A stretch of 32,764 nucleotides of DNA, taken from positions 1 to 32,764 of the forward strand of contig CAIYDQ010000119.1 of the NCBI GenBank assembly GCA_903925075.1, written 5' to 3'. The notes under the pieces are model-generated. The model was not told where the DNA came from, did no database searches, and saw only the letters and a program-made list of their open reading frames with translations. This stretch comes from an uncultured Geobacter sp. (GTDB lineage: Bacteria > Desulfobacterota > Desulfuromonadia > Geobacterales > Geobacteraceae). The number at the start of each line of letters is the position of its first letter. Position 1 is the stretch's first letter. Both the position numbers and the translations under genes were made by a program. This document shows positions 7,769 to 32,125 of the stretch, piece after piece.

Positions 7769-7782
7769 CTCACGGCAAGGCG

Positions 7783-9249: not shown

Positions 9250-9334
9250 CGGTTCTCGGGGCGGGGCTGCGGGACGATCGAGCCTGGAGTTTTTGGACCA
9301 AGGAGTTGCCGGAGAGCGGAGCCGTGGCGGGGCC

Positions 9335-9922: not shown

Positions 9923-10776
9923 GCGGCCATCCCTCCCTCGTAGTTGCGCGCCTCGGGAAGCCCCGAGAGCTCGTGAACCAGCCACGCATAGCCCGAGCGG
10001 ATCCCTCCCAGGCAGTAGTAGACCACCGGCTTGCCGGCATCGACGCCGTGCTTGGCGAGGAGCGTTTTCAACTGCTGCGCCGAGATCGGGCGTCTCTCCT
10101 TGCCGGTGTAAAACTCGTCCCACGGGATGTGCACCGCGCCGGGAATCTTCCCCTGAAACCACTCAAGCGTCGAACGGACGTCGACCACGGCATAGCCTCC
10201 CTTGCGGCGCTCAAGCTCTTCGGTGGCGATGTCGAGCTGCGCGTTCAGGCGCGCCTGATAGGGGCGCTTCTTGACGGCGGGACGCTCGGCCGACCTGCTG
10301 AGCGGGAGGTTCCGCGCCTGCCAGGCCTGGACGCCGCCGTTCAAGATCCGGATCGGTCCCTGGTGCCCGAGCCAGGAGAGCACCCAGGCGTCCCACCCTT
10401 CCCCCCCCCAACTCTTGTCCGCGTCGCCGTAGATCAGGACCGGGCTCTTTTCATCCAGCCCCATGGCGCTCAGGGCGGCCGACATCTCTGCAGGCGGGAA
10501 AACCCGATACTGTACACCTTTGTCGTCGGTTCGTGTATAGTTCTCCCACGAAAATGAGCGGGCTCCGGGGATGTGCCCGGCCGCCCATTCTGCCCTGGGA
10601 CGGGCATCGAGCACGATCCACCCCGAGCCGTCGCCGCTTAAAGCCGCCGCGTCCATCAACCCCAGGTCGGCGCCGCTGGCTGCGCCGATCCACGAGAGAA
10701 CCATGGCAAACGCCACCCCAAAATATCGCCAGCGCCTTGGAATCCCCGGTCTGGCCAGCTTTACCATCGCATGCAT
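9898..10776 (-). CDS. exported two-domain rhodanese (thiosulfate sulfurtransferase-like)
   Basis: 292 aa. Basic residues RRWR followed by a hydrophobic stretch to about residue 35 indicate export to the periplasm. Two rhodanese domains follow (about 40-160 and 180-290). The first has no cysteine in its active loop (YGDADKSWGG), the second has CLGGIRSG with the catalytic Cys255, the usual arrangement of an inactive plus an active half. It should transfer sulfane sulfur or a related anion to a nucleophilic acceptor; the natural substrate is unknown. The 5' end overlaps by about 74 bp the divergent membrane glycosyltransferase gene if both starts are right; an internal ATG at 10701 would remove the overlap but destroy the signal peptide. 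Confidence 0.85.
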   Translation of the reverse strand: MHAMVKLARPGIPRRWRYFGVAFAMVLSWIGAASGADLGLMDAAALSGDGSGWIVLDARPRAEWAAGHIPGARSFSWENYTRTDDKGVQYRVFPPAEMSAALSAMGLDEKSPVLIYGDADKSWGGEGWDAWVLSWLGHQGPIRILNGGVQAWQARNLPLSRSAERPAVKKRPYQARLNAQLDIATEELERRKGGYAVVDVRSTLEWFQGKIPGAVHIPWDEFYTGKERRPISAQQLKTLLAKHGVDAGKPVVYYCLGGIRSGYAWLVHELSGLPEARNYEGGMAAWQKRATR

Positions 10777-12106
10777 CGTTGTTGCCTCCTATGGCGGTTA
10801 TGCGTGCCAGCCGAACCTGCGGCTGGCCATTCCGGTGCTGGTCGGGGCGAGCGCCCTGGTTTCGGGCGCCCTTGCCGTCGCCCTCTATCTGGGAGAGAGG
10901 GGCCGACTCGACTGGGCACCGGGATTGATCCTTGGCATCGCCCTGATCGCAAGGCTTTTTTTTCTTTTTACCCCGCCGCAGCTCTCGGACGACATCTACC
11001 GCTACCTCTGGGACGGGCTGCAAACGCTCGGGGGGGCGAACCCCTACGCCGCGTCGCCGGCTGCGGCCCCCGCGGCGTCGGCCGCGCAACGGGCCCTGCT
11101 GCCGCTGGTCAACCATCCCGAATTGGTGACCATCTACCCCCCGGCGGCGCAGCTTGTTTTCGCCGCCGGCGCCGCGCTGGGAGGCGGGGTCCTCGGCATG
11201 AAGTCGCTGCTGGTGCTGCTCGATCTCACGCTCTGCCTAGTGACGATGCGCCTGCTCCGGCGCCTGGGACTCCCTGCATGGAGGGGGGCGCTCTACGCCT
11301 GGTGCCCGCTTTCGGTGCTGGAAATCGCCGGTTCCGGCCATGTCGACGGGGCGGGGATCCTCTTCCTGCTGCTGGCGATCGCCGTCGTCGTCGACGGGCG
11401 GATCTCGGGGAGGAGCGCTGCCGGGGAGCGGCTCCCCTTTGCCGCCGCCGGCGCCCTGTTCGCCCTCGCGGCGCTGGTGAAACTCTTTCCCCTGGCGCTT
11501 TTCCCCGGCATGATCGTCTTCGTCCCGCCCGGCTGCCGGCGCTCGTTTCTGGCGGGTTTCGCGGGCCTGGGCGCGCTGCTGCTGCTCCCTTTTTCCAAAG
11601 CCCTGCCGCAGCTGGCGCAGACCCTGGCACTCTACGCCAAGAACTGGGAGTTCGCCGGCTTCGCCTTCAACGCCCTGCGCGCCCTCACCGGCTCCGGCCC
11701 CGCCGCCCGCTTCCTTTTGTGCGGCGTATTCCTGGCCGCGCTCGCGCTCTCCACCAGGCGGCTCGCGCGGGGACTCGCGCCCCTTCGCGCCGGAGCGCCC
11801 GGCGAGGATGCGGCTGCCGGGCGCCTGCTGGCGGGGCACTGCTACCGGGTGGCCCTGGCCTTCCTGCTGCTGACGCCGACCCTGCAGCCGTGGTACGCGC
11901 TCTGCCTGGCGGCCTTTCTCCCCTTCTCGGCGGGGCCCGCCGGCCTCGCGCTCTGCTGGTCCGTATTCCTCGCCTACCGCGTGCTCATCCCCTATACGAT
12001 TCTTGGCCAGTGGCAGGAATCCGGCTGGGTGACCCTGCTGGTCTTTCTCGCCCCGGCCGCCTCCTTCGGGCTGGCCCAGCTGGCGCGCCGCGAGGGCGCG
12101 ACTTGA
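10703..12106 (+). CDS. polytopic membrane glycosyltransferase (GT87/mannosyltransferase-like)
   Basis: 467 aa with about ten or more hydrophobic helices. The first extracytoplasmic loop carries LSDDIYRYLWDG near residues 93-104, the acidic motif of GT-C enzymes that use polyprenyl-phosphate sugars, followed by NPYA; this pattern is typical of DUF2029/GT87 and bacterial alpha-mannosyltransferase relatives. It probably adds a sugar to a lipid-linked or surface glycan. The nearby GT2 at 12162-12932 (of the type that makes the lipid-phosphate sugar donor) is a plausible partner. ATG 10703 is chosen because the frame upstream lies wholly opposite the rhodanese gene; no strong ribosome site is visible. 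Confidence 0.75.
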   Translation: MANATPKYRQRLGIPGLASFTIACIVVASYGGYACQPNLRLAIPVLVGASALVSGALAVALYLGERGRLDWAPGLILGIALIARLFFLFTPPQLSDDIYRYLWDGLQTLGGANPYAASPAAAPAASAAQRALLPLVNHPELVTIYPPAAQLVFAAGAALGGGVLGMKSLLVLLDLTLCLVTMRLLRRLGLPAWRGALYAWCPLSVLEIAGSGHVDGAGILFLLLAIAVVVDGRISGRSAAGERLPFAAAGALFALAALVKLFPLALFPGMIVFVPPGCRRSFLAGFAGLGALLLLPFSKALPQLAQTLALYAKNWEFAGFAFNALRALTGSGPAARFLLCGVFLAALALSTRRLARGLAPLRAGAPGEDAAAGRLLAGHCYRVALAFLLLTPTLQPWYALCLAAFLPFSAGPAGLALCWSVFLAYRVLIPYTILGQWQESGWVTLLVFLAPAASFGLAQLARREGAT

Positions 12107-12161: not shown

Positions 12162-12932
12162 TCAGATTTTCTCCGTGGCAAAAGGTTTTGGCTGAAGATT
12201 TGCCTCCGTCTCGCCTCCCTGCCAGAGTTCCCTGCCGATCACCCAAAGGATCTTGGTCCCGGCCCGCGCCACTCCGGTCAGGGTGCGGCTGATTTTCGAA
12301 ACCCCCGCGATCCGCGGGTAATAAGGAAGAGGGCATTCCTTCACCTCCAACCCCGCCTTCAGCGCCTTGATCTGCATCTCCACGGTCCAGCCGAAGTCTT
12401 GGTCGACCATGTTCAGCTTCTCAAGCGCCCCCCAGGAAATAGCCCGCATCGGCCCGAGATCGCCGTAGGAGTGCCCCCAGATGAGCCGGATCAGGGTGGT
12501 GGCCAGCCGGTTGCCGAAGCGCTGCTGCAGGGTGAGCGCCCGCTCTCCGACCGGGACCCGGCGTGCCAGAACGAGGTCGGTCGCCTCCTCTCGGATGAGC
12601 CGCAGCAGGACCGGCAGGTTCTGCACCCCGTCGCTGCCGTCGGCATCGGCAAAGGCGACCACGCCGGGCGGCGCCTCCCTCAGGGCGGCGATCCCCGCCA
12701 GGCACGCCCTGCCGTAACCGGGAACCGGCTCGAAGACCACCTCGGCGCCCAAGGCGCGCGCGACCGCCGCGGTGGCGTCGGTCGAGCCGTTGTCGACCAC
12801 CAGTATTCGCGTCACCGCATCGGGAACCATGGAGAGGACCGCGGGGAGGGAAAGCGCCTCGTTTCGGGCCGGGATGATCAGCGCCACCCCGCCCCCCGCG
12901 GGCTTCCCCGTCCGGGTGAAATCGCCGTTCAC
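12162..12932 (-). CDS. family-2 glycosyltransferase (polyprenyl-phosphate-sugar-synthase-like)
   Basis: A 256-aa GT-A enzyme without clear membrane helices. Motifs: ALIIPARNEA near residues 17-26, VVDNGSTDAT, and FADADGSD, which carries the metal-binding acidic residues. It resembles dolichyl/undecaprenyl-phosphate mannosyl- or glucosyltransferases that load a sugar on a lipid carrier. The start is GTG with AGGGGGG about 4 nt upstream. It lies 46 bp behind the first beta-barrel gene on the same strand, so it may be co-transcribed, but a functional tie to the rhodanese module is not evident; the convergent GT-C gene is a more natural partner. Confidence 0.82.
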   Translation of the reverse strand: MNGDFTRTGKPAGGGVALIIPARNEALSLPAVLSMVPDAVTRILVVDNGSTDATAAVARALGAEVVFEPVPGYGRACLAGIAALREAPPGVVAFADADGSDGVQNLPVLLRLIREEATDLVLARRVPVGERALTLQQRFGNRLATTLIRLIWGHSYGDLGPMRAISWGALEKLNMVDQDFGWTVEMQIKALKAGLEVKECPLPYYPRIAGVSKISRTLTGVARAGTKILWVIGRELWQGGETEANLQPKPFATEKI

Positions 12933-12978: not shown

Positions 12979-13818
12979 TCAGGGGGTCTTGTAGTACAAG
13001 GCCAGGGAATAGTTGGCGCCGGCCGCCGTATTTTGCCCGTAGACGTCCGGCCGGCAGCCGGCTTCCAGTCCCAGGGCCGGCGTTATCTTATAGCCGACCA
13101 CGAGATCCAGCTTCCCCAGGTCGAAGTTGTTGGTGGCCGTGGGGTTGCCGCTACCGTCCATTTTTGTGCCGTTGTCGACGCTCAGGGTTCCATCCAGCTT
13201 GGCGCGGGCGTAGACGCTTTTGGTGACGTCGACGCCGAATTCGACCAGATAGCGGATCTCGTCGGAAGGGGCCTCGGCCCGCCAGCGGTAACCGATCTCC
13301 AGGTTGCCGTAAGCCGGGATCCACGGATACAGGGAGCGGCCGTACAAAAGCTTCAGCTCCGTGTCGAACTGGCCGTTGCCAAGCGGCAGCGGGTCGTTCT
13401 TGCCATACGCGCCCGGGATCTTGACCAGCAGCTGGGTGGAAACGACGCCGGCCTTCTCGCTGTCCAAAAGCTTGTAGCGCACTCCGAGGTCCACGTCTCC
13501 CAGGCCGTACCCTTTGGAGACGGCGGTGTCGTCCTCGTTTCTCAGCCACTTGTAGGTGAGGGAGTTGATCACGGTCAGGTCGTCGGTCAGGCCGTATTCG
13601 AAGTAGTTGCTGATATCGTAATCGGAGAATTTCCCGTTGTTGGGCATCGCCCCGCGGGTTCCGGATTGGTCGAAGTTTTGATGGGCGTAATAGTAGTCGA
13701 AGGAGAGCTTCTCGTAGAAGGCGGACTTTGGGGCGGTCCAGGCGCCGGCGAAGCAGCTGGATGCCGAGGCGCCGACGACGAAGAGCGCCCACAGCGATAG
13801 GTGCACGATTTTTTTCAT
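12979..13818 (-). CDS. outer-membrane beta-barrel (ExtI-like porin), module 1
   Basis: A 279-aa protein with a signal peptide ending at CFA|GAW and alternating aromatic/hydrophobic strands throughout, as in a small outer-membrane barrel. It is clearly paralogous to the barrel at 16477-17397: both share GAWT-PK-YEK at the mature N-terminus, YGLTD-L, G-GDVDLG, and VKIPG-Y-NDPLPLGNG-F in the middle. Each barrel gene follows a multi-rhodanese lipoprotein gene. In G. sulfurreducens the barrel ExtI is encoded beside the rhodanese ExtH and has been linked to selenite and tellurite reduction; that this protein is the same family is inference from context and fold. GGGAG is too close to ATG 13827 and well placed (9 nt) for ATG 13818. 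Confidence 0.75.
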   Translation of the reverse strand: MKKIVHLSLWALFVVGASASSCFAGAWTAPKSAFYEKLSFDYYYAHQNFDQSGTRGAMPNNGKFSDYDISNYFEYGLTDDLTVINSLTYKWLRNEDDTAVSKGYGLGDVDLGVRYKLLDSEKAGVVSTQLLVKIPGAYGKNDPLPLGNGQFDTELKLLYGRSLYPWIPAYGNLEIGYRWRAEAPSDEIRYLVEFGVDVTKSVYARAKLDGTLSVDNGTKMDGSGNPTATNNFDLGKLDLVVGYKITPALGLEAGCRPDVYGQNTAAGANYSLALYYKTP

Positions 13819-13841
13819 CTGGTTCATCTCCCGGGATGGTG

Positions 13842-13869
13842 AAGAGGGCGCCGGTCAAGGCGCCCTCTT
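13842..13869 (-). terminator. intercistronic hairpin, module 1
   Basis: AAGAGGGCGCC (13842-13852) pairs with GGCGCCCTCTT (13859-13867 plus TT to 13869) around the loop GGTCAA: an 11-bp perfect stem between the tetra-rhodanese stop and the barrel start. On the minus strand no long T-run follows, so it may act as a processing or attenuation structure rather than a full stop. Confidence 0.55.
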
Positions 13870-13904
13870 TGTTTGAGCGGAGCGTACGAGCGGGCTGCCG
13901 TGCG

Positions 13905-15638
13905 TCAGGGCGTGGAGGCTGCCGCCGGCAGGGTTGCATCGGCGCTCCATTCGGTCCAGGAACCGTCGTAGTTGCTGACGTTGAACCCCATGAGCCTGAA
14001 GATGAGATACTCCTGTCCGGAACGGTAGCCCACGTAGCAGTGGGTTATCACCGTCTTGCCGGCCGCGATGCCGTTGCCGTCCAGGACGGCCTTCAAATCC
14101 GCATAGGATTTGACCGTGTTGTCGGCGTTCAAAAAGGCGGTCGTCAGGATGTTCTTGGCGTTGGTGATGTGCTTGGTCGCGTAGTCGGCCGCTTCCCTGG
14201 AATCCACGATCGCGTAAGTGGCGGTGGCCGCCGTCGAGGCGTCCGCGTAATGGGCCAGCACCTCGGCTTTGGTCGCCAGTTTGCTGCCGTCGGGGACCGG
14301 GGTGAAGGTGGCGGCCGTGGGCGCGGTGGCAGTGGTTACCGTGGCCCGCCCGTCGCTCAGCCACTTGTCGAAGCCGCCGTCCAGCACGTGCACGTCTTTC
14401 GCGCCCAGATACTCCAGCATCCAGAACACCCTGCCGGCGTTGGCGTCGACGTCTTTGGCGTAAACGACGATGCGCGTGCCGTTGGAAATGCCGGCGGCCC
14501 CGAGCATGGCGGCGATATCCGCCGGACTCTTGAGGTCGGTGCTGTCGATCCCCGCCCCCCCCTTGTCGAAAGAACCGGGGGGCAGGTTGACCGCGTTCTT
14601 GATATGGCTCGCCGCGTAGTCGGCAGCGGATCTCGCATCGATGATCACCTGGTTGGCGCTGTCGAGATTGGCAGCCAGCAGGTCCCCGGATTCCAGCAGG
14701 TTGCCGTTGATGCGACTGGCCGTGGGGAGCGTCGGATCCGCGTTCCACTCGGTCCAGGAGCCGTCGTAATTGCTGACGTCGTAACCCATGAGCCGGAAGT
14801 AGAAATACTCCTGCCCGGAGCGGTACCCGACGTAGCAATGGGTAATCACCGTCTTGCCGGCGGTGATCCCCTTGCTTTCCAGGAGCGCCTTGATGTCGGC
14901 ATAGGATTTGACCGTGTTGTCGGCGTTCACAAAATCGCCGGTAAGGACGTTTACGGCGTTGGGGATGTGCTTTGCGTCGTAAGGTAGGTTCGCTCCCGTC
15001 TTGGTGCCGGTGGCGTCCGTCGCGTCCCGCGAATCCACGATGGCGTAATTGCCGTTGTTGTAGTTGGCCAGCACGGTCGCCTTGGTGGCGGATTTGGAGC
15101 TGTCCACGGCCGGCACGAAGGTGGCCGGCGTCACCGCCGGCAGTGCGGTCGCCGCGGGGTTGCCGTCGCTCAGCCACTTGTCGTAGCCGCCGTCCAGCAC
15201 GTGCACGTCTTTCGCCCCCACGGACTCCATCAGCCAGAACACCCTCCCGGCGCTGAAGTCCGGATTGTTGTTTTGTCCGTAAATCACGACCTTGGTGGTG
15301 GCGGTGATCCCCGCTGCGCCCAAGATGGCGGCGATTTCCGCCGGGGATTTGAGGTCGGTGGTCCCGGCAACGTTGAAATTGCCGTAGGGCAAACTAACCG
15401 CATTCCTGATGTGGCCGGCGGCGGCGTAGTTGCTTCTCACGTCGACGATCACCTGGTTGGCGCTGTCGAGGCTTGCCGCCAGATCTGCCGTGCCGACCAA
15501 CAGGGCGCTGTTCTTGAACGTCGCGGCGGCGACAGCCGTAGGTTGAACCTTCTGCGCAACGCTGCTGCCGCAACCCGCCAGCAGGGTGCCCCCCAGCGCA
15601 AGGACGGCCAGTCCCATCCAAATCGATGCTCTTTTCAT
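13905..15638 (-). CDS. four-domain rhodanese lipoprotein, module 1
   Basis: 577 aa. The signal peptide ends in a lipobox LLAGC (Cys23), so it is a lipoprotein, probably at the outer membrane. Four rhodanese domains follow, at about 45-165, 185-300, 310-430 and 450-570. Domains 1 and 3 lack the catalytic cysteine (loops YGQNNNPDFS and YAKDVDAN); domains 2 and 4 have identical loops HCYVGYRSGQEY with Cys268 and Cys534. The two halves are so alike in protein and DNA that they arose by duplication of an inactive/active pair. It should carry persulfide or an analogous selenium adduct; the substrate is not known. GGAAGGAG lies 9 nt before the ATG. Barrel and glycosyltransferase genes follow on the same strand. 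A predicted LysR-controlled promoter lies upstream. Confidence 0.88.
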   Translation of the reverse strand: MKRASIWMGLAVLALGGTLLAGCGSSVAQKVQPTAVAAATFKNSALLVGTADLAASLDSANQVIVDVRSNYAAAGHIRNAVSLPYGNFNVAGTTDLKSPAEIAAILGAAGITATTKVVIYGQNNNPDFSAGRVFWLMESVGAKDVHVLDGGYDKWLSDGNPAATALPAVTPATFVPAVDSSKSATKATVLANYNNGNYAIVDSRDATDATGTKTGANLPYDAKHIPNAVNVLTGDFVNADNTVKSYADIKALLESKGITAGKTVITHCYVGYRSGQEYFYFRLMGYDVSNYDGSWTEWNADPTLPTASRINGNLLESGDLLAANLDSANQVIIDARSAADYAASHIKNAVNLPPGSFDKGGAGIDSTDLKSPADIAAMLGAAGISNGTRIVVYAKDVDANAGRVFWMLEYLGAKDVHVLDGGFDKWLSDGRATVTTATAPTAATFTPVPDGSKLATKAEVLAHYADASTAATATYAIVDSREAADYATKHITNAKNILTTAFLNADNTVKSYADLKAVLDGNGIAAGKTVITHCYVGYRSGQEYLIFRLMGFNVSNYDGSWTEWSADATLPAAASTP

Positions 15639-15783
15639 GATTTACTGCTCCTTCCAACGGAATAAGTTCCTCAAAGGGGAACGCTGTGCGGGGGGGGGGG
15701 CGAAGACGCAATGGAAACGCCGGCGGACGCGGCGGACCGGCAAAACTGTGCTGCACTGCACTGCGTCGGCCTGCCTGCGGGGG

Positions 15784-15812
15784 AAGCTAACAAACTCACT
15801 CATTAAAGTCAA
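15784..15812 (-). promoter_or_regulatory. promoter of rhodanese/barrel module 1
   Basis: On the minus strand TTGACT (plus positions 15807-15812) is spaced 17 nt from TAGCTT (15784-15789). The whole block 15787-15813 is conserved in front of module 2 at 20143-20170 (shared start CTAACAAAC and end AAAGTCAAA on the plus strand). The weak -10 suits an activator-dependent promoter. The remaining region 15639-15783 is leader, including an 11-G run at 15690-15700. Confidence 0.55.
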
Positions 15813-15832
15813 ACCGAAAAGATCGATTAAAC

Positions 15833-15847
15833 AGATCAACGCTATCG
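15833..15847 (-). promoter_or_regulatory. predicted LysR-type regulator site, module 1
   Basis: AGATCA-ACG-CTATCG: one half matches the CTATCG half-site perfectly, the other is degenerate (3 of 6). It ends exactly 19 nt before the TTTGACT block, the same distance as in module 2, putting the centre near -63. Confidence 0.5.
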
Positions 15848-15923
15848 TTTTCAGCAATACACTTCCGCCGTCGTCCCGCTCCCGACAGCGTCGGCGGCCC
15901 GGCGAACAGGCTCGGCCTGACGC

Positions 15924-15964
15924 AAAAAGGGCGCGCTTCGCGGTCAAGCGAAACGTGCCCTTTT
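15924..15964 (-). terminator. terminator of the module 2 operon
   Basis: On the minus strand a nearly perfect stem of about 17 bp (15924-15941 with 15948-15964) around the loop TTGACC is followed by five T residues. It lies 45 bp downstream of the single-domain rhodanese gene and is a strong intrinsic terminator for that transcript. Confidence 0.8.
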
Positions 15965-16008
15965 GTCGTGCATCGAGCCGGCAGCGGCGGCACCTGCCGC
16001 GCAGGTTA

Positions 16009-16440
16009 CTAGCGGCGCTCGACCGGCGCGCCCGGCACGTCGACCAGGCCCGGTATCCCCGGGGCCGCGATGTTGTAGACGTGCTCGAAACCGTTTCTCA
16101 CCAGCAGTTCCGCGGCGCGCCGGCTGCGCAGGCCGCACGGGCAAGCCAACAACACCTTCTTCTCCTTGTAGGCTGCGATCTCGCTCAGGCGCCCGGCCAA
16201 CTCGCGCTCGGGGATCATGGTCGCCCCTATCAGAAAGTCGTGCTTGCTTTTCATTTCCTTCTCGGAACGGACGTCGAGGATCAGGATGTCCTTTCCGTTC
16301 TTTAGCATGGCCACCGAATCGGCGGCGTTCAGATCGGTGACGTCCCCGGGGCCGAAGGCGGAAAACTTCAATCCATTGCCGGCGCATCCCAAAACGGTCA
16401 TGGTCCATAGCAGCGTTGCCAGCACAAGCACTTTTTTCAT
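16009..16440 (-). CDS. single-domain rhodanese lipoprotein, module 2
   Basis: 143 aa. The signal peptide ends with VLGC (Cys19), a lipobox. One rhodanese domain follows, with ILDVRSEKEM near residue 54 and the active loop CPCGLRSRR. The loop fits CxxGxRS with Cys100 as the catalytic residue and an additional Cys102 inside the loop, which is unusual. It lies 36 bp behind the barrel gene with AAGGAG 7 nt before its ATG, so it is the third gene of the module 2 operon, and a strong terminator follows. It may act as a small sulfur or selenium shuttle next to the barrel; this is inferred from position only. Confidence 0.85.
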   Translation of the reverse strand: MKKVLVLATLLWTMTVLGCAGNGLKFSAFGPGDVTDLNAADSVAMLKNGKDILILDVRSEKEMKSKHDFLIGATMIPERELAGRLSEIAAYKEKKVLLACPCGLRSRRAAELLVRNGFEHVYNIAAPGIPGLVDVPGAPVERR

Positions 16441-16476
16441 TTTATTCTCCTTTTATGGCGAGTCGGTTCGGCGCGT

Positions 16477-17397
16477 TTACCTGAGTAAATAGTAGAGACC
16501 CGCCGCATACGAGGTGGCCGCTGAGGTGTCGCCCGTGCGCAGCGTCGGGCTGTAGCCAAGCTGCGCTCCCCATCTGTCGGTCAATTTATAGGTCAGCACC
16601 AAATTAAGGAACTGCTGGTTCCGATTGTCGCTCGTGGTGCTGTCGAGGCCCGTAATCGCTCCGTTGCCGCCGCAGCTTGCGACGCTCTTCGAGGTCAGCT
16701 TCGCAGCCACCGGATTGAGTCCCGTGTTCGCCCGGTTGTCGCCGTTTCTCATGCTGAGGATCCCGTCAAAGGTCAGCTTCACCTGAATCCTTTGGGTCAG
16801 GTCCGAGCCGAATTCGGCGCCGTAACGGAACTGGTCCGAAAAACCTCCGAACCTGAAACGGTAGCCGGACTCGAAATTGATGTACCCGGGAAACCATCTC
16901 CACATCGAGAGCCCGTACAGAGCGCGGTAATCCACCTCGAAGCGCCCGTTGCCCAGCGGCAAAGGATCGTTTCTGTCGTAGAGTCCGGGAATCTTCACCA
17001 TCAGCTTGTGCGAAACGACGCCGAAGTCGCCGTCCGCCAACTTCTGCTTCAAGCCGAGATCGACGTCTCCAAAGCCGTTGCTCCTCGTGGTCGTGTCCGT
17101 CGTCAGGTACGCCCCGTTGTTGCTGTTGTTGTCATATACGGTGGAACTATACTGATTCCAGAGAAATTTATAGAATATGGAACTGACGAGGCTTAAGTTG
17201 TCGGTAAGTCCGTATTCGAGATAATTGGCTATGGTTATATCGTTGAATTTATTTTCCGTGAGATAAATCAGGGAGACTTTCTCGTACATGCCCCCTTTCG
17301 GTTCAGTCCATGCCCCCGCCAAGCAGTAATTCGCCGACAGGATGTAAACCGCGACAGCGAAGAGGACTAACGTCTTTGGAACAATGTGCATTTTCAC
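16477..17397 (-). CDS. outer-membrane beta-barrel (ExtI-like porin), module 2
   Basis: 306 aa from a GTG at 17397, or 304 aa from the ATG at 17391; GAGG is about 6 nt before the GTG and 12 nt before the ATG. The signal peptide ends CLA|GAW. The body is a run of amphipathic strands rich in Tyr, Phe and Trp, and the end is GLYYLLR. It is paralogous to the barrel at 12979-13818 (shared GAWTxPK, YGLTD, GFGDVDLG, VKIPG-Y-NDPLPLGNG) but carries extra loop residues such as an Asn/Ser/Thr-rich insert near residue 90. It probably forms an outer-membrane pore whose solute is unknown; the ExtI analogy suggests oxyanions. Confidence 0.77.
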   Translation of the reverse strand: MKMHIVPKTLVLFAVAVYILSANYCLAGAWTEPKGGMYEKVSLIYLTENKFNDITIANYLEYGLTDNLSLVSSIFYKFLWNQYSSTVYDNNSNNGAYLTTDTTTRSNGFGDVDLGLKQKLADGDFGVVSHKLMVKIPGLYDRNDPLPLGNGRFEVDYRALYGLSMWRWFPGYINFESGYRFRFGGFSDQFRYGAEFGSDLTQRIQVKLTFDGILSMRNGDNRANTGLNPVAAKLTSKSVASCGGNGAITGLDSTTSDNRNQQFLNLVLTYKLTDRWGAQLGYSPTLRTGDTSAATSYAAGLYYLLR

Positions 17398-17425
17398 CGG
17401 CGTCCTCTCGTTTTAAGATAAAAAA

Positions 17426-17450
17426 GAGGGCTCCCTTGCGAGGAGCCCTC
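17426..17450 (-). terminator. intercistronic terminator, module 2
   Basis: GAGGGCTCC (17426-17434) pairs perfectly with GGAGCCCTC (17442-17450). Read on the minus strand it is followed immediately by six T residues. It lies between the hexa-rhodanese stop and the barrel start, so it probably terminates or attenuates part of the transcript inside the operon. Confidence 0.75.
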
Positions 17451-17467
17451 CCGCATGAAAACATCCT

Positions 17468-20083
17468 TTACGGAAGACCGCTCGCCACGGGCCGTCCCGA
17501 CGGCGTCTGCACCCCGTTCAACATGACGGAGCTCCAGGTATTCCAGCCGTCCGTGTAGACGCGAACCTTGTCGTAACCCATGAGGTAACCCATGAGGAAG
17601 GCCTGGGAGGCGCCGTAGCCGTCGCCGCAGTAGAACCAGGCGTCGCTGTCGGCCGTTATCCCCAGGGAGTTGTAGAAGCTCCTCACCTCCGTGTAGCTGG
17701 CGTAGGTTCCGTCGGCGTCGGTCTTGCGAACCGAGGCCTGCACCGCGCCCGGTATGCGCCCGGCGATGTTGGTGTAGGAATAGCCGCTGTAAAGGCCCAA
17801 GTAGAGCCGGTAGCCGCGGTCGTCCATCATCGGCGTGGGTTTGTCCGCATAGTGCGCCAGCGCCTGGGCGGTGGTCGCCCTGATCGCCGAGTTTATGGTG
17901 CCGCTGAAGGCGGCCGGCGTCGGCGGGTTGTTCTTGGTTTCCCCCGCGTAGCCGGCGTTGGGCCAGGCGGCGTAACCTCCGTCGATCAGCCGCACGTCTT
18001 TCACGCCGACGTATTTGAGCAACCACCAAATCCGGGCCTCGAAGTTCGGCTGGTCGCTGTAGACGACCACCGTGGTGTCGGCGGTGATGCCCAACGCCCC
18101 GGCGTGGGCCTGCAGGGTCGCGTCGTCCTTCAGGTTGTAGAGCGGTGCGGTTTCCCAAGGGTCGGTGTCGGCGTGCACGGCGCCGGGGATATGGGCCGTG
18201 TTGTACACCGTGGACGGGGTCCCCCAGGAGCTTTCCAGGATGAGGTACTTGTGGGTCGCCTTGTCGTAGGGGATGCCGTTGGCGTCCGTGTATTCGAGCG
18301 GCGCGGCGCTGCTGCTCCCCGGCGCGTAATAATCGATCAGCGACTTCACCCAATCCGCGTTGACCAGTTCCTGGTAGTGAGCCGCCTTTTCCTCGGGATA
18401 AGCGGCGGCGTCGGCGGCGCTCCACTCGAACATGGACGCGTCGTAGTTCGAGGCGTTCGCATACCCCATCAGGCGGAGCAGAAAATAGACGTAACCGCTG
18501 CGGATGCCGGCCGTGCAATAGGCGGTGACCTGCTTGTCCGTGGTTATGCCGCGGGATTCGAACATCTGCTTCAGGGATTGATAACTGAGCGTGGTCTTGT
18601 CGGCGTTGTAGAAAGCCCCATAGGGAAGGTTGAAGGCGCCGGGGATATGCCCGCCCCTGGTTTCGCCGCAAAACTTCCAGCCGTTGAATTCCTCGTGGGT
18701 GCGGGAGTCGATGACGGCGAAGCCGGCGCTGCCGAGTTGGGCCTTGATCTGGGCACCGGTGAGCTTTCTGGCGGCCTGCACCGAGGAGGTGAAGGTCGCG
18801 GCAGGGAGCGTCGTCGCGGTCGTCGATTTCACGTTGCTCGCATCGGCTGCCCATTTGTCCCAGCCGCCGTTGAGGATATGCACGTCGGCGCACCCCAGAT
18901 ATTCCAGCATCCAGAAGAGCCTTCCGGCCGCGCCCCACGAGGCGGTGGTGTCGTCGTAAATGACTATGGTGGCGCTGCGGCTGATGCCGGCGGCTCCCAG
19001 CAGCCCTTCCAGGGTCGCCAGGGGTTTGAGCCCCGCGCCGGCCGTCCAGTAGTCGTTATGGACGACGTTGATGGCGCCGGGAATGTGGCCGGCCGCGTAC
19101 TGGGCGGCGCTTCTGGCGTCGATCACCAGCGCGGGGGCGGCCAGGGCGCCCTTGTCCACCAGCAGACCGGCATTGGGATAGCCGGTGGCCGCGTTCCACT
19201 CCGTCCAGGAGCCTGCGTAAATGCGCACATCGAAGCCCATCAGGCGAAGGATCTGGTATTCCTGGCCGGCGCCGGCGCTGGAACCGCCCGGCGTATCGTA
19301 GACGATTATCTTCTTGTTGGCCGCGGCCCCCGTGAAATCCGTCAACCATTTGAGCTTGGTGTAGGACAAGAGCGTTTTGTCCCTCTCCAGAAAATCGCCG
19401 GGAAGGAGGTTAATGGCCGAGGGGATGTGCCCGGCCTGGTAATCCTTGGCGGGTCGGGCATCGACGATCACGGAGCCTGGGTCCGTGGCGGCGGCGATCA
19501 CGTCCTGCTTGCTGGCGAGCCGGCCGGCATCGACCGTGGCCGTGAAGGTCTGAGTCTTGCCGTTGAGCGGGATGGAGGTAGCGTCGGTCACTTTCAGGCT
19601 GCTGTCGGCGGTGGTCAACCACTTGGCGTAACCGCCGTCCAGGATATGCACATCCTTGGCGCCCAGGTACTCCAAGGCCCAGAAGATCCGCCCCATGCCG
19701 GCGTCCACGTTGGCGCCGTACAGGATGATCTTGTTGGTGTCGGCGATGCCGTAGGTGGTGCCGAGCAGCGCCGCGGCGGCGTCGGGGGTGAGCAGCGCGT
19801 TCGAGGTGGGGCTGGTGTCGAGCGCCGTGGCGGGCATGTTGATGGCGCCCGCGATGTGCCCGGCGGCGTAAAGGGCCGCGCTCCTGGTGTCGATGACCAC
19901 CTGGTTGGGCGCGCCCAAAACCAGGTCCGGGACGCTGACCGCCAGGGCTGCATTGGGGGCGACGGTGAGCGCCACCTGGGTGGCCGGAGTGACGGATGTC
20001 GTGGAGCTGGAATTGCCGCCACAGGAGGCGAGCATAAATGCTCCAACGAACCATAAAGCAAGGTTCAAAAATCGTGTTTTCAT
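17468..20083 (-). CDS. six-domain rhodanese lipoprotein, module 2
   Basis: 871 aa, far longer than ordinary two-domain sulfurtransferases. Start ATG 20083 (AAGGAG 10 nt upstream) is preferred to the in-frame TTG at 20104. The signal peptide ends LASC (Cys21), making it a lipoprotein. Six rhodanese-like domains stand as three pairs, at about 50-160, 190-300, 315-415, 440-560, 610-715 and 735-855. Only domain 4 has a canonical loop, CTAGIRSGY with Cys523. Domain 6 has a cysteine in an odd loop, CGDGYGAS (Cys819), and domains 1, 2, 3 and 5 have none. The others may bind partners or substrates without catalysis. A barrel and a small rhodanese lipoprotein gene follow on the same strand. Confidence 0.87.
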   Translation of the reverse strand: MKTRFLNLALWFVGAFMLASCGGNSSSTTSVTPATQVALTVAPNAALAVSVPDLVLGAPNQVVIDTRSAALYAAGHIAGAINMPATALDTSPTSNALLTPDAAAALLGTTYGIADTNKIILYGANVDAGMGRIFWALEYLGAKDVHILDGGYAKWLTTADSSLKVTDATSIPLNGKTQTFTATVDAGRLASKQDVIAAATDPGSVIVDARPAKDYQAGHIPSAINLLPGDFLERDKTLLSYTKLKWLTDFTGAAANKKIIVYDTPGGSSAGAGQEYQILRLMGFDVRIYAGSWTEWNAATGYPNAGLLVDKGALAAPALVIDARSAAQYAAGHIPGAINVVHNDYWTAGAGLKPLATLEGLLGAAGISRSATIVIYDDTTASWGAAGRLFWMLEYLGCADVHILNGGWDKWAADASNVKSTTATTLPAATFTSSVQAARKLTGAQIKAQLGSAGFAVIDSRTHEEFNGWKFCGETRGGHIPGAFNLPYGAFYNADKTTLSYQSLKQMFESRGITTDKQVTAYCTAGIRSGYVYFLLRLMGYANASNYDASMFEWSAADAAAYPEEKAAHYQELVNADWVKSLIDYYAPGSSSAAPLEYTDANGIPYDKATHKYLILESSWGTPSTVYNTAHIPGAVHADTDPWETAPLYNLKDDATLQAHAGALGITADTTVVVYSDQPNFEARIWWLLKYVGVKDVRLIDGGYAAWPNAGYAGETKNNPPTPAAFSGTINSAIRATTAQALAHYADKPTPMMDDRGYRLYLGLYSGYSYTNIAGRIPGAVQASVRKTDADGTYASYTEVRSFYNSLGITADSDAWFYCGDGYGASQAFLMGYLMGYDKVRVYTDGWNTWSSVMLNGVQTPSGRPVASGLP

Positions 20084-20342: not shown

Positions 20343-20383
20343 GTAGGTCGAGTTGAACGGCTTCATCGTGTAACACGACATTG
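20343..20383. repeat. dispersed-repeat copy 1
   Basis: A 41-nt unit beginning GTAGGTCGAGTTGAACGG, repeated with three mismatches at 20440-20480. The intergenic region 20205-20596 holds this repeat and copy 2; no gene is recognisable in it. Confidence 0.7.
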
Positions 20384-20437
20384 CCATCGCGGCGCCGTTG
20401 CGACTATTCACCACATCAGCCGACAACCTCGCACAAC

Positions 20438-20532
20438 CCGTAGGTCGCGTTGAACGGCTTCATCGTGAAACGCGACATTGGCCCTGTGGCACCGTGGCGA
20501 CGTCGCGTTTCGTACCTCAACGCGACCTACGG
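20438..20532. repeat. REP-like palindromic element (copy 2 inside)
   Basis: CCGTAGGTCGCGTTGA (20438-20453) and its perfect 16-bp reverse complement at 20517-20532 bracket an inner inverted pair, GAAACGCGAC (20467-20476) and GTCGCGTTTC (20502-20511). The element can fold into a long two-part hairpin. A run of nine T and eight G follows at 20541-20557. It looks like a dispersed extragenic palindrome. Confidence 0.75.
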
Positions 20533-20596: not shown

Positions 20597-21493
20597 CTAC
20601 TCGCCGTAGGTCTCGGTCATCACGGCGGAAAAGGCCTTGGCTGCGGGGGAGAGCTCCCGCCCTTTTCTTTTGACCAGGTAGAACTGGCGCGTGATGGCAA
20701 CCCCGTCCACCGGCACGCGCACCAGCAAACCGTGAGCCAGCTCCAGCTCCACCGAGACCGCCGAAACGAAGGATACCCCGACGCCGGCGATCACCGCCCG
20801 CGTCACCGCATGGTTGCTGCCGAGGCTCACGGCTTCGCGAACGGCCCCGGTGTCGATGCCCGCCTCGCGCAAGGCCGCAACCGTCGCCTGCCCGGTGCCG
20901 GAGCCCGCCTCCCGCACCACGAAGGGCTCCCGCAAAAGCTCCTGAACGGGAATCGACCCGACCGTGGCCCAGCGATGGCCGGACGGGGCAACCAGCACGA
21001 TCTCGTCCCGGCAAAGCGGCTCGAACTCCAGCCCTTCTCCCGCGAAATGCCCTCCGACCACCCCGTACTCCACCTGCTCCGACAAAAGCCACTGCTGGAC
21101 GTCCCGGCTGTCCCCCTGGGTGAGGGTGACGGCAAGGCCAGGATATCTGCCGATCAGCGCCGGCAACGCCGCCGGTATCAGATACTCGCCGGGAATGCTG
21201 CTCCCCGCAATCCTCAGCTGCGCATGCTCCACCCCCTTGAATCTGCCGATGGCGATCGGGATCTCGCGAGCGTAACCGAGCATGCGGCGCGCCCGTCCCA
21301 AGAGGAGTTTTCCACCCTCGGTCAAGAGCGCCCCCTTCCCCGTTCTGTCGAAAAGTCTGAGGTCGAATTCGTCCTCCAAGGCCAGGACCTGCTGGCTCAC
21401 CGTCGAGTGGGTGAGAAAGCAGGCCTCGGCCCCTTTGGAGAAACTGCCGGTGTCCGCGACGGCGAGGAAAATTTCCAACTGTTTCAGATTCAT
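20597..21493 (-). CDS. LysR-type transcriptional regulator, possibly selenium/sulfur-related
   Basis: A 298-aa protein of standard LysR length. The N-terminal winged helix-turn-helix includes SFSKGAEACFLTHSTVSQQV (about 17-36), and the C-terminal two-thirds is a periplasmic-binding-like effector domain (start of fold near AQLRIAGSSIPGEYLIP). It resembles the CysL-like LysR group, and I recall annotation schemes listing a selenium-metabolism-associated LysR family of this kind; membership is not proven here. It is divergent from a small gene at 21606, with a perfect dyad between them. Near copies of that dyad with the same spacing stand in front of both rhodanese/barrel modules, so it is the best candidate for their activator. 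Confidence 0.9.
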   Translation of the reverse strand: MNLKQLEIFLAVADTGSFSKGAEACFLTHSTVSQQVLALEDEFDLRLFDRTGKGALLTEGGKLLLGRARRMLGYAREIPIAIGRFKGVEHAQLRIAGSSIPGEYLIPAALPALIGRYPGLAVTLTQGDSRDVQQWLLSEQVEYGVVGGHFAGEGLEFEPLCRDEIVLVAPSGHRWATVGSIPVQELLREPFVVREAGSGTGQATVAALREAGIDTGAVREAVSLGSNHAVTRAVIAGVGVSFVSAVSVELELAHGLLVRVPVDGVAITRQFYLVKRKGRELSPAAKAFSAVMTETYGE

Positions 21494-22532: not shown

Positions 22533-23021
22533 ATGATCATCGTAAAAATGACGGTAAACGGCAATCCGATCGAAGTGGGCGTGGGGGACGAGGAGACGCT
22601 GCTGGAAACCTTGCGCCAGCGGCTCGGCTTGACCGGGACCAAGCAGGGGTGCGATCTGGGCGACTGCGGCTCCTGCACGGTGCTTATCGACGGCAAGCCG
22701 GCGCTTTCCTGCCTGACGCTGGCGGCCGACGCCGAGGGGCGTGAGATCACCACCATCGAGGGATTGGCCCATGGAGAGGATCTCCATCCGGTGCAGCGCG
22801 CCTTCCACGAGGCCGGCGCCGTGCAGTGCGGGTTTTGCACTCCGGGCATGGTCCTCACCGCCAAGGCGCTGCTGGACGCGAACCCCAACCCGGACCGAGA
22901 TACCATCAAAGGGGCGCTGGCCGGCAACCTCTGCCGTTGCACGGGGTACGTGAAGATCGTCGACGCGGTGGAGAACGCCGCCAAGGTTTATCCGCGGGCT
23001 CGGGTGGAGGAGGCGCGATGA
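22533..23021 (+). CDS. molybdenum hydroxylase 2Fe-2S subunit (HcrC-like)
   Basis: A 162-aa protein with the two [2Fe-2S] domains of xanthine-dehydrogenase-family small subunits: plant-type C40, C45, C48, C60 (GCDLGDCGSC) and helical-domain C99, C102, C134, C136 (CGFC and CRC in GNLCRCTGY). It passes electrons between the molybdenum site and the FAD subunit. The frame is open further upstream, but GGGGAG a few nt before ATG 22533 and the family N-terminus fix the start. First gene of a three-gene operon in the order small, Mo, FAD, the order of hcrCAB for 4-hydroxybenzoyl-CoA reductase. It overlaps the next gene by 4 bp. Confidence 0.9.
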   Translation: MIIVKMTVNGNPIEVGVGDEETLLETLRQRLGLTGTKQGCDLGDCGSCTVLIDGKPALSCLTLAADAEGREITTIEGLAHGEDLHPVQRAFHEAGAVQCGFCTPGMVLTAKALLDANPNPDRDTIKGALAGNLCRCTGYVKIVDAVENAAKVYPRARVEEAR

Positions 23022-25300
23022 ACTCCACCTTTCAATACGTCGGCAAGGACCTGCCCCGCATCGACGCGGTCGCCAAACTGACCGGAGACGCCCAATATAC
23101 CGACGACCTGCACCTGCCGGGAACACTGGTCGGAAAGCTGTTGCGCTCTCCGCACGCCCACGCGCGCATCAGGGGCATCGACGTTTCCAAGGCGGAGGCG
23201 CTCCCCGGCGTCAAGGGGGTCGTCGTCGGCACGGATGCCCCGATCCGCTTCGGCATCCTCCCCGCCGCCAAGGACGAAACCGCCCTCGCCATCGAAAAGG
23301 TGCGCTACGTGGGCGAGCCGGTGGCCGGCGTGGCTGCGGTCGACGAGCGCACCGCCTTGCAGGCGCTGAAGCTGATCGAGGTCGATTACGAGCTGTTGCC
23401 GGCGATCTTCGACCCTTACGAGGCGCTGACCCGCGAGGACGTCAAGATCCACGAGGGTTGCAAGGAGGCGAACGTCGAGCGGCGCGGCTCCCTGGAATTC
23501 GGCCAGGTCGACGCGGGCTTCGCCGACGCGGATTACATCAGGGAAGACAGCTTTTTCAAGGAGGCGATCACCCACGCCCCCCTGGAGACCCACGTGGCCC
23601 TGGCCAACTACCGCGACGGCAAACTGACCCTCTGGTCCACCACCCAGGTGCCGCATTCGGTCCACCGGTCGATCTCCGAGGTGCTGGAAATCCCGATGGA
23701 CAGGGTCCGGGTGATCAAGCCGACCCTGGGCGGCGGCTTCGGCGGCAAGGGAGAACCGTTCTCCTTCGAGTTCGTCGCCTGCATGCTTTCCAGGAAATGC
23801 GGCCGCCCGGTAAAAATAGTCCACACCCGCGAGGAAGTGTTCCTGTCCCATCGGGGGCGCCACCCGATGCACATGAAGCTTCGCACCGGGGTGAAGAAGG
23901 ACGGCACCATCACCGCCGTCGTATTCCACAACCTGTTGGACGGCGGCTCCTACGGCTCCTACGGCTTGGTGACCCTGTACTATTCCGGCCAACTCCTGAC
24001 CCTGCCCTACTCTCTGCCGGCCTACCGCTTCGACGCGGCGCGGGTCTTCACCAACAAGCCGGCCTGCGGAGCCTTGCGGGGGCACGGCGCGGTCGGGCCT
24101 CGCTTCGCCTTCGAGGTGCACCTCGACCGCATCGCCGCCGACCTGGGGCTGGACCCGCTGGAGATCAGACGGAAAAACGCTCTGCAGCCCAACACCATGA
24201 CGCTGAACGAATTGCGGATCACCTCCTGCGGCTTCGAGGAGTGCCTGGAAAAGGCGAGCCAGGCCATCGGCTGGGAGGAGCGGCGGGGGAAACTGCCGCG
24301 CGGCCGCGGCGTCGGCCTCGCCGGCGGGGGCTACATCTCCGGGGCGGGCAACGCCATCTATTACAACCCGATGCCGCATTCCAACGTCAACATCAGCGTG
24401 GACCGGGGAGGCGGCGTCACCGTCTTTTGCGGCGCCTCGGACATCGGCCAGGGATCAGACACCATGCTCGCCCTGGTGGCCGGCGAGATCCTGGGGGTCC
24501 GGCCGGATGCGGTGAAGGTGGTTTCGGCCGACACGGACACCACCCCGGTCGACCTCGGTTCCTACTCGAGCCGGGTGACCTTCATGGCCGGCAACGCCTG
24601 CAAAAGCGCCGCGCTCGACGTGCGCGGCAAAATACTGGCCATCGTCGCCGAGCACCTGGGGGTTGCCGCGGAGGCCGTGCGCATCACCGACGGCGTCGCT
24701 TCGGCGAAGGGGTGCGAGCGGACGCTGAGCTTCGCGCAGGCGGTGGTGTTGGCCGAGTCGAAAGGAGCGCCCATCTTCGGTTCCGGCGGCTACACGCCGC
24801 CGAAAATGGGGGGGAGCTACCGGGGCGCCGGCGTCGGGCCGAGCCCGGCCTATTCCTTCGGGGCGCACGCGGCGGAAGTCGAGGTGGACGAGGAAACCGG
24901 CGTGGTCAAGGTGCTGAGGCTGGTGGCGGCCCACGATCTGGGGCGCGCCCTCAACCCGCTGGCGGCCGCGGGGCAGGTGCAGGGGGCGGCGGTCAACGGG
25001 CTGGGCGAGGTGCTCCTGGAAAGCCACGTCATTTTGCCCGGCGGCCAGCACGCCTCTCCCAGTTTTCTGGAATACAAGATGCCCACCATGCTCGACGTCC
25101 CCGACGTGGAGCCGATCCTGGTGGAGAGCGTCGATCCCGAGGGGCCTTTCGGGGCCAAGGAGTGCGGCGAGGGGAGCCTGCATCCCTCGATACCGGCGGT
25201 GATCAACGCCATCTACGACGCGGTGGGAATCTGGCTGCACAATGCGCCGATCACGCCGGAAGCGGTCCTGGAAGCACTCAGGAAAAGGAAAACGCCATGA
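23018..25300 (+). CDS. molybdenum hydroxylase large (Mo-cofactor) subunit (HcrA-like)
   Basis: 760 aa, the normal length for a separate molybdopterin subunit of the xanthine dehydrogenase family. The cofactor-binding motif GGGFGGK is at 238-244, RGHG occurs in CGALRGHGAVGPR, DIGQGSDT follows, and the conserved catalytic-type glutamate is E718 in GAKECGEG. RGHG rather than RGPG is seen in nicotinate dehydrogenase and hydroxybenzoyl-CoA reductase relatives. It starts at the ATG overlapping the previous stop, with GGAGGAGG upstream. With the iron-sulfur-bearing FAD subunit next door, a reductive dehydroxylation of 4-hydroxybenzoyl-CoA (PcmRST/HcrCAB type) is the leading idea; other aromatic or purine substrates remain possible. 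Whether it carries selenium is not visible. Confidence 0.88.
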   Translation: MNSTFQYVGKDLPRIDAVAKLTGDAQYTDDLHLPGTLVGKLLRSPHAHARIRGIDVSKAEALPGVKGVVVGTDAPIRFGILPAAKDETALAIEKVRYVGEPVAGVAAVDERTALQALKLIEVDYELLPAIFDPYEALTREDVKIHEGCKEANVERRGSLEFGQVDAGFADADYIREDSFFKEAITHAPLETHVALANYRDGKLTLWSTTQVPHSVHRSISEVLEIPMDRVRVIKPTLGGGFGGKGEPFSFEFVACMLSRKCGRPVKIVHTREEVFLSHRGRHPMHMKLRTGVKKDGTITAVVFHNLLDGGSYGSYGLVTLYYSGQLLTLPYSLPAYRFDAARVFTNKPACGALRGHGAVGPRFAFEVHLDRIAADLGLDPLEIRRKNALQPNTMTLNELRITSCGFEECLEKASQAIGWEERRGKLPRGRGVGLAGGGYISGAGNAIYYNPMPHSNVNISVDRGGGVTVFCGASDIGQGSDTMLALVAGEILGVRPDAVKVVSADTDTTPVDLGSYSSRVTFMAGNACKSAALDVRGKILAIVAEHLGVAAEAVRITDGVASAKGCERTLSFAQAVVLAESKGAPIFGSGGYTPPKMGGSYRGAGVGPSPAYSFGAHAAEVEVDEETGVVKVLRLVAAHDLGRALNPLAAAGQVQGAAVNGLGEVLLESHVILPGGQHASPSFLEYKMPTMLDVPDVEPILVESVDPEGPFGAKECGEGSLHPSIPAVINAIYDAVGIWLHNAPITPEAVLEALRKRKTP

Positions 25301-26283: not shown

Positions 26284-26372
26284 CTCGGGTAACTATTCCG
26301 CATAGTCAAAACAAAAGGCGGGCGAACATCTTTAAACGATCAAAGGCTCGCACACGGAAACTGCGGAGGCAA

Positions 26373-26441
26373 CGGATAAAGGCAGATTAGGCAAGACCTT
26401 GGGGGTAACCCAAAGCCTTCCGTTTGATCCGCCTTTATCCG
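26373..26441. repeat. inverted repeat between hydroxylase operon and nuclease gene
   Basis: CGGATAAAGGC (26373-26383) and its perfect reverse complement GCCTTTATCCG (26431-26441) flank an inner TTGGG/CCCAA stem. It lies between two convergent genes and could be a shared terminator or a dispersed repeat. Confidence 0.6.
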
Positions 26442-26458
26442 TCCAGTCCGCTGTTTTG

Positions 26459-27364: not shown

Positions 27365-27467
27365 AAAATGCCTCGAAGAGGGGAAACGACTCACCATGGT
27401 GTAACAGAAGCTTCCGGGAATATCAAGGACGATGGACCGCGGAACGGCCGCCGAGACTGCCGCCGGA

Positions 27468-28265: not shown

Positions 28266-28281
28266 TTTTTTGGCGTCCGAC

Positions 28282-29040: not shown

Positions 29041-29158
29041 GCTGCACCTCTATCTGCCGTTAAACGTCGGAAAAGTTTTCTTGCCCTGAAGATATGACGA
29101 TTGCCGAAAAAAAACAAGCCGGTCGGACCGGAGCCGGCGGACGAACGTACTTAAAACT

Positions 29159-29186: not shown

Positions 29187-29207
29187 TTTTCCTGCCCGCT
29201 TCGCTGG

Positions 29208-32113: not shown

Positions 32114-32125
32114 GTCAGTCTCCCT

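Follow-up and report, generated by a model that had tools for sequence, protein, structure and literature searches.

Positions 12,979 to 20,083 of the 32,764-nucleotide stretch analysed here (the window, which is the whole of contig C119 in the 6.55-Mb genome of an uncultured Geobacter sp.) hold five genes on the minus strand (12.9–20.1 kb), in the order Rho6, Barrel2, Rho1, Rho4 and Barrel1, which encode rhodanese-domain lipoproteins and two outer-membrane barrels. We found that barrels of this family are inherited together with a further rhodanese, Rho2, and with a putatively processive family 2 glycosyltransferase (GT2), GT2_7783. We tentatively suggest that the window carries a version of a conserved locus for the synthesis and export of a surface glycan, equipped with its own exported tandem sulfurtransferases. 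An earlier note on this DNA had read the five genes as a surface system that takes up or processes sulfur or selenium oxyanions, sulfane sulfur or persulfides, and had overlooked Rho2 (9898–10776) and three glycosyltransferases, all of which belong to the conserved neighbourhood.

Co-inheritance of barrel, rhodanese and glycosyltransferase genes

Among 141 genomes of the order, the barrel was present in 27, Rho2 in 30 and GT2_7783 in 25; Rho2 was present in every one of the 27 barrel genomes, and the barrel in every one of the 25 GT2_7783 genomes (Fisher values, with no correction for relatedness, of 6e-26 and 1e-25). Thresholds were fixed before the searches (E ≤1e-60 for Rho2 and ≤1e-120 for GT2_7783), and the barrel count leaves out weak matches in G036, G091 and G112 (E 3.8e-5 to 6.4e-4), the worst match kept being that of G111 (5.6e-59). 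Furthermore, the genes are linked, with barrel and Rho2 lying within 12 kb of each other in 26 of 27 genomes and barrel and GT2_7783 in 21 of 25. In the two barrel genomes without a GT2_7783 match (G098 and G111), Rho2 lies within 0.3 and 2.7 kb of a contig start, on the side expected of GT2, and a 76-amino-acid GT2 fragment stands there in G111 (locus L062). Given that genomes of the genus hold either all three genes (7 of 19) or none of the three (12 of 19), the set behaves as an accessory island.

The gene neighbourhood is also conserved. A barrel homologue was found in nine of 38 related genomes, and in all nine it adjoins a gene with at least two rhodanese domains (broken into frames in G016), so that the rhodanese–barrel pairing to which the earlier note had drawn attention is conserved and exceeds chance. 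In eight of the nine, this pair is followed on the same piece of sequence by GT2_12162, Rho2 and GT2_7783; at the remaining locus, L031 (G027), these three are on another contig. GT2_12162 (12162–12932, minus strand) is a family 2 glycosyltransferase resembling polyprenyl-phosphate-sugar synthases (PF00535), and its best NCBIfam match is AglJ, below the cut-off (80.5 bits versus 325). Most of the nine loci also hold a gene with iron–sulfur (Fe-S) dicluster and TVP38 parts or TVP38 alone, the small secreted protein sec199 and a GT-C-type enzyme. At loci L028 and L049, of Geomonas silvestris, the four-domain rhodanese lipoprotein gene seems broken over several frames, and the barrel and glycosyltransferases look whole.

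A scan of named genomes with Barrel2 (P0004) alone gave no relative, and a rerun with alignment A1 gave 20 loci (of the further alignments, A3 leaves out the partial L062, A7 leaves out L056, and A5 and A6 have 14 and 12 rows). A rhodanese was found at 18 of these 20 loci, within about 220 bp of the barrel at 16, and one or more of the three glycosyltransferases likewise occurred at 18. A TVP38 membrane protein occurs at 13 of the 20, in 11 of them within one gene that also carries an Fe-S dicluster part; both identities were checked with Pfam on one protein of each kind. The window cluster is without the dicluster–TVP38 gene, and a 53% relative lies on contig C32 of the same genome. At about 4741–10598 of that contig (locus L119), a second dicluster–TVP38 gene stands beside a rhodanese-like gene, with ABC-transporter genes seen nearby by eye. 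The make-up of this locus resembles that of ydjXYZ-ynjABCD-ynjE in E. coli. As background, PMC10127716 concerns DedA families and PMC3688515 the FNR regulon.

We then considered 40 barrel loci, namely the 20 named ones, four further close ones and 16 distant ones (L153 and L162 come from one genome), scoring a glycosyltransferase as present at ≥60 bits by BLASTP to the window proteins. Of these loci, 35 had one or more of the three glycosyltransferases and 30 had a rhodanese; six loci had a glycosyltransferase without a rhodanese, one had a rhodanese without a glycosyltransferase, and four had neither. As a control, none of the seven other rhodanese-bearing stretches of the same genome (L036–L042) matched any of the three glycosyltransferases.

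Barrel and glycosyltransferase in distant loci

Barrels (E ≤1e-10) were found in 17 of 395 genomes drawn from the phylum, the genome studied here among them. The 16 distant loci hold at least one glycosyltransferase in 13 cases and a rhodanese in eight. In nine of them (L144, L147, L148, L149, L150, L152, L154, L155 and L156), the barrel and a GT2 are immediate same-strand neighbours, at most 111 bp apart, and no rhodanese was found in five of these nine (L148, L149, L154, L155 and L156). Since the barrel adjoins the GT2 in distant loci, five of them without a detected rhodanese, we place it with glycan export first and with sulfur chemistry second. L149 (873–7539) also carries DUF2064, DUF3641–radical SAM and B12-binding radical SAM (S-adenosylmethionine) genes, a set that resembles arsenosugar-type clusters.

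GT2_7783 (7783–9249, minus strand) is a membrane protein resembling cellulose synthases, with PF13632, PF13641 and PF00535 above cut-off. Its motifs D86-D87, DAD142-144, TED233-235 and QQQRW271-275 (positions in the window protein) are invariant in 11 of 11 aligned rows, so by its motifs it qualifies as a processive GT2 synthase of the kind used in synthase-dependent polysaccharide secretion. Exopolysaccharide operons of the BcsA-BcsB-BcsC type likewise rely on a processive GT2 with D, DxD, TED and QxxRW motifs. In nine of the distant loci a GT2 adjoins the barrel, and a BcsB-domain protein adjoins the barrel in two of these, L154 and L155 (PF03170, 63.7 and 52.8 bits, cut-off 21; L156 lay outside the scan). 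Unlike those operons, the cluster has a 12-strand barrel, no scaffold that we could find, and rhodaneses together with an Fe-S/TVP38 protein. Among the window proteins scanned, none was a BcsB (nine gene models lay outside the scans).

Predicted fold of the barrels

Barrel1 (P0001; 12979–13827, minus strand) was modelled alone with AlphaFold2 from a 21-row alignment of the two window barrels and 19 of the 20 named loci. The structure check that the earlier note had proposed came out in its favour: the model (predicted local distance difference test, pLDDT, 86.1; predicted template-modelling score, pTM, 0.78) is a barrel with 12 long strands by DSSP, and a conserved GAWT segment precedes the first strand. 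A Foldseek search with the model ranked the COG4313 channel 4rl8 first and second (E 2e-10, TM-score 0.72–0.77), followed by FapF, and 4rl8 (E 0.0036) was also the sole match up to E 5 when the barrel sequence profile was compared with Protein Data Bank (PDB) chains. COG4313 channels (Pput2725, PDB 4rl8) and FapF thus share the 12-strand barrel with the Barrel1 model, and 4rl8 is its best fold match; identity is about 15%, and glycosyltransferase and rhodanese neighbours are a feature of the present cluster.

Neither window barrel exceeded any Pfam or NCBIfam cut-off. PF13557, which we take to be the Pfam model of the COG4313 (Phenol_MetA_deg) channels, matched none of 21 barrel members at E 0.05, and single members matched other barrel models instead, PF01389 (E 1.7e-5), PF07642 (0.0094) and PF05736 (0.022). 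For these reasons we describe Barrel1, as modelled, as COG4313-like and not as a COG4313 member.

Tandem rhodanese proteins

The domain counts given in the earlier note were reproduced, with PF00581 found six times in Rho6 (P0005; 17468–20083), four times in Rho4 (P0002; 13905–15638) and once in Rho1 (P0003; 16009–16440, 32.3 bits), all on the minus strand. Its view of them as lipoproteins agrees with lipoboxes recognised by eye (LASC in Rho6, LAGC in Rho4 and VLGC in Rho1). The ATG at 20083, where the interval treated in that note ends, is likely the start of Rho6. Rho2, also on the minus strand, has two PF00581 domains, the second with the loop CLGGIRS, and a signal peptide seen by eye.

The multi-domain proteins are strings of classic pairs, in which an N-terminal domain without the catalytic motif is followed by a domain that has it. 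Across the window and the cluster loci, 66 of 70 rhodanese pairs carry the strict CxxGxR[SA] loop in their second domain, and no pair carries it in its first; this count excludes eight rhodanese open reading frames (ORFs) with an odd number of domains, some of them partial, broken or antisense frames. With the loop so widely kept, sulfurtransferase chemistry of the tandem rhodaneses is plausible, and this part of the earlier interpretation stands. The structures nearest Rho4 are two-domain sulfurtransferases, with a strong sequence match. The inactive-plus-active pair is that of two-domain thiosulfate and 3-mercaptopyruvate sulfurtransferases (1uar, 1e0c, sseA) and of E. coli YnjE; unlike in these, two or three pairs are strung together here in one lipoprotein. 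Rhodanese-fold loops of the sulfur type read CX4R and those of phosphatase-like proteins CX5R. A phosphatase-like use of the fold was ruled out, the loop being CX4R.

Rho4 consists of two inactive-plus-active pairs, both active domains being intact with CYVGYRS. Its halves are 62% identical, with a 263-nt DNA repeat at 80%, a pattern indicating that Rho4 arose with an internal duplication. In Rho6, the loop of domain 4 is intact (CTAGIRS), domain 2 has lost the Cys, and domain 6 (CGDGYGA) has lost the Arg. Since the N-terminal pair of Rho6 (approximately residues 45–318) is closer to Rho4 (41–46%) than to the middle pair of Rho6 itself (38–40%), Rho6 seems to have arisen by the joining of a Rho4-like unit to the common four-domain form. 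Rho1, with the loop CPCGLRS, has no relative at any cluster locus and only a 35% relative elsewhere in its own genome, and we therefore place it outside the conserved set.

Origin of the second module

The earlier note had described two paralogous modules. The barrels are indeed homologous, sharing the motif NDPLPLGNG and 37.6% identity by BLASTP (45% in the MAFFT alignment). The modular layout fared less well. The single barrel of the relatives best matches Barrel1 in nine of nine cases (56–68%), and their single rhodanese lipoprotein best matches Rho6 in eight of nine, the ninth being a tie between Rho6 and Rho4 (50–52% identity in six). The pair found in relatives thus corresponds to Rho6 and Barrel1, and Barrel2-Rho1-Rho4 was therefore probably inserted between these older partners. 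In a 36-row barrel tree (without L149, L151, L152, L157, L162 and the partial L062), Barrel1 is placed in the company of mainly Geobacteraceae rows, and Barrel2 (16477–17397, minus strand), the second barrel of the family, groups in a different clade with L059 and L060, which come from a Nitrospinota bin and an unclassified bacterium (support 99/98), a placement that carries some doubt with a branch as long as 1.24. Because of this grouping, Barrel2 was probably acquired from outside, and its low G+C content of 54%, against a window value of 64%, agrees with this. Descent of Barrel2 as an old paralogue is less likely. A simple tandem duplication of one module was ruled out, given the composition of the relatives' pair and the position of Barrel2 in another clade. 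The rhodanese of L060 is Rho4-like (53%); that of L045 is Rho4-like too (53%), but its barrel is Barrel1-like (67%).

Other features of the window

The small secreted protein sec199 (9335–9922, minus strand), conserved in the cluster, is predicted to be a beta-sandwich (AlphaFold2 pLDDT 79.5), with no Pfam or NCBIfam match and nothing significant in Foldseek (best E 0.019). The GT-C-type membrane glycosyltransferase (10571–12106, plus strand) carries a DDIYRYLWDG motif, and its true start is probably near 10700. Its enzyme class was assigned by eye, since the family scans gave no family above cut-off; it is presumably a GT87 enzyme.

A terminator-like hairpin of 12 pairs with a T-rich tail lies between Rho6 and Barrel2 (17424–17452, minus strand) and has the longest stem among the sites of a consensus scan that returned 13 sites against 12.2 expected by chance; a promoter scan of the window returned 4 against 2.0. 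Rfam and tRNA scans of the window gave nothing. A LysR-type regulator (20597–21493, minus strand; PF03466, PF00126) adjoins the cluster, with homologues at four of the 20 named barrel loci (L051, L052, L054 and L058). Between it and Rho6, at 20343–20532, lie two repeats of 62 nt that are 84% alike, and perfect inverted arms of 16 nt are present in the second. They resemble an element of the REP type, and contig C32 holds a similar phrase.

Molybdenum (Mo) hydroxylase gene sets flank the cluster on both sides (2264–3747 and 22536–32764). MocA, YqeC (TIGR03172), YqeB (TIGR03309) and the alpha subunit of 4-hydroxybenzoyl-CoA reductase scored above cut-off, an XdhC-like factor and a second hydroxylase subunit below it, and this content suggests a selenium-dependent molybdenum hydroxylase. 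Elsewhere in the genome (L164; contig C198, 26717–27634), a selD gene above cut-off has an in-frame TGA, and its product, selenophosphate synthetase, is therefore probably a selenoprotein itself. The flanking hydroxylase and cofactor gene models had no match in the loci of the nine relatives, and among all loci compared, the flanks were matched only by genes resembling FdhA (in L045, L144 and L036) and XdhC (in L147). A link between the cluster and these neighbours was therefore set aside as incidental.

Proposed role and alternatives

Domain content, barrel fold, active-site conservation, co-inheritance and linkage were computed; glycan export, the barrel as a glycan pore and the action of rhodaneses on the glycan are what we infer. 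We consider it rather probable that the conserved cluster is a glycan locus. With some reserve, we propose as a joint claim that this locus has its pore in the barrel and is served by the rhodaneses. GT2_12162 and the GT-C-type enzyme would supply or modify a lipid-linked sugar, GT2_7783 would processively make a polymer or oligomer, and the glycan would exit through the 12-strand barrels. Beside the barrel at the outer membrane, the lipoproteins built of rhodanese pairs, with exported Rho2, would move sulfane sulfur at the envelope, its target being perhaps the glycan, glycan-modifying proteins, or an exchange with thiols or polysulfide held by the matrix. In a speculative and rather unlikely extension of this idea, the product of the cluster would be an exopolysaccharide or matrix that itself bears sulfur (as thiol, as persulfide or as a load of sulfane sulfur), served by a dedicated exported sulfur relay; searches of open-licence PMC papers gave no description of tandem rhodaneses in a glycan locus or of machinery for such a biopolymer.

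Several observations weigh against a glycan locus with a barrel pore. No glycosyltransferase was found at five of the 40 barrel loci (L058, L061, L151, L157 and L162), three of which border a contig end or come from a short contig. Rho2 occurs without the barrel in three genomes (G023, G024 and G109), where the surrounding sequence retrieved contained none of the three glycosyltransferases, and can therefore work elsewhere. The absence of a rhodanese from L149 concerns one flank only, the other side being 37 bp, and at the three loci with the most distant barrels (L154–L156), the adjoining GT2 has only 27–29% identity to GT2_7783. No known polysaccharide exporter or scaffold was found among the window proteins scanned, and the GT-C-type enzyme, as said, belongs to no family above cut-off. 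COG4313 channels have been tied to the uptake of hydrophobic molecules, and the lumen of 4rl8 is very narrow and plugged (PMC4493636); no 12-strand polysaccharide exporter was named in the literature consulted.

It is because of this link to hydrophobic uptake that a role in handling zero-valent sulfur or polysulfide stays alive, as an unlikely alternative. The barrel would admit hydrophobic sulfur (S8 or organic polysulfide), the rhodanese lipoproteins and Rho2 would accept sulfane sulfur for respiration or assimilation, and the glycan genes would make a matrix that attaches cells to solid sulfur. The barrel resembles, in fold and weakly in sequence, channels of a family that has been implicated in taking up hydrophobic molecules (PMC4493636); this is consistent with such a role, as are the conserved sulfurtransferase active sites, and the TVP38 protein of 13 of 20 named clusters, fused in 11 to the dicluster part, suggests thiol redox work. 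Yet barrels adjoin the GT2 at loci where no rhodanese was found, the window cluster itself is without the dicluster–TVP38 gene, and the genes identified in the conserved block, where no model search aimed at such enzymes was made, include no reductase of sulfur or polysulfide.

Uptake and reduction of selenite, tellurite or another sulfur oxyanion in the manner of ExtH/ExtI, the reading favoured in the earlier note, appears quite improbable. In the ExtHIJKL system of Geobacter sulfurreducens, ExtH is a rhodanese lipoprotein, ExtI is porin-like and ExtKL is a cytochrome. The cluster resembles it in having a rhodanese lipoprotein gene beside an outer-membrane barrel gene and a LysR regulator near, as the ext cluster does (PMC6148476), and an extI mutant was impaired in selenite and tellurite reduction (PMC5877670). 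The selD gene with its in-frame TGA and the flanking selenium-dependent Mo-cofactor genes would also suit this reading. However, the curated ExtH model (NF040901, cut-off 200 bits) gave 94.0 bits for Rho4 and 62.7 for Rho6, both under the cut-off, and hhalign of barrel profile A3 against four barrels adjoining ExtH genes above cut-off, which served as stand-ins for ExtI, detected no relation (probability 0.6%, E 0.096); ExtHI orthology was ruled out by these two results. ExtH above cut-off was found in 13 of 20 genomes searched, not including the present one, and four genomes (G002, G007, G008 and G009) carry both ExtH, at other loci, and this cluster. Glycosyltransferases stand here in place of the ext cytochromes: as the earlier note had observed, there are none, CXXCH occurring in 0 of 27 window gene models (one of these, FdhFAD, is misframed) and, among six-frame ORFs of at least 80 amino acids, only in a 101-amino-acid antisense frame opposite Barrel2. 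The flanking genes, for their part, are unmatched in the relatives' loci and recur elsewhere among cluster loci only in L147, L045 and L144. Oxyanion uptake also fails to account for the near-perfect co-inheritance of the barrel with a seemingly processive glycosyltransferase, and for the barrel–glycosyltransferase association at loci without a detected rhodanese.

The usual set for periplasmic glycosylation comprises a GT2 of the polyprenyl-phosphate-sugar type and a membrane GT-C enzyme. The cluster holds such a set, and Rho6 and Rho4 have linkers that by eye are rich in Ser, Thr and Ala, but it is very improbable that the rhodanese lipoproteins are the targets of these glycosyltransferases or that a glycolipid is their product, with the barrel serving another need and the rhodaneses acting as surface sulfur enzymes that partner their own glycan coat, as a processive GT2 would then be unneeded and yet adjoins the barrel in nine of 16 distant loci, five without a detected rhodanese.

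Rhodaneses are usually classed with sulfur trafficking or detoxification, and a surface-glycan locus would be an unexpected place for sulfur chemistry. For the glycan locus proposed here, the near-strict co-inheritance with a processive glycosyltransferase and an outer-membrane barrel would connect sulfur transfer with the way in which Geobacter-type bacteria make or use a surface glycan; their matrix is important when they attach to minerals and electrodes. Our analyses also call for caution, in that not every rhodanese-plus-barrel pair in these bacteria should be read as an ExtH/ExtI selenite system. A sulfur-bearing matrix, if real, would let Geobacter relatives bind or exchange sulfur and soft metals at their surface.

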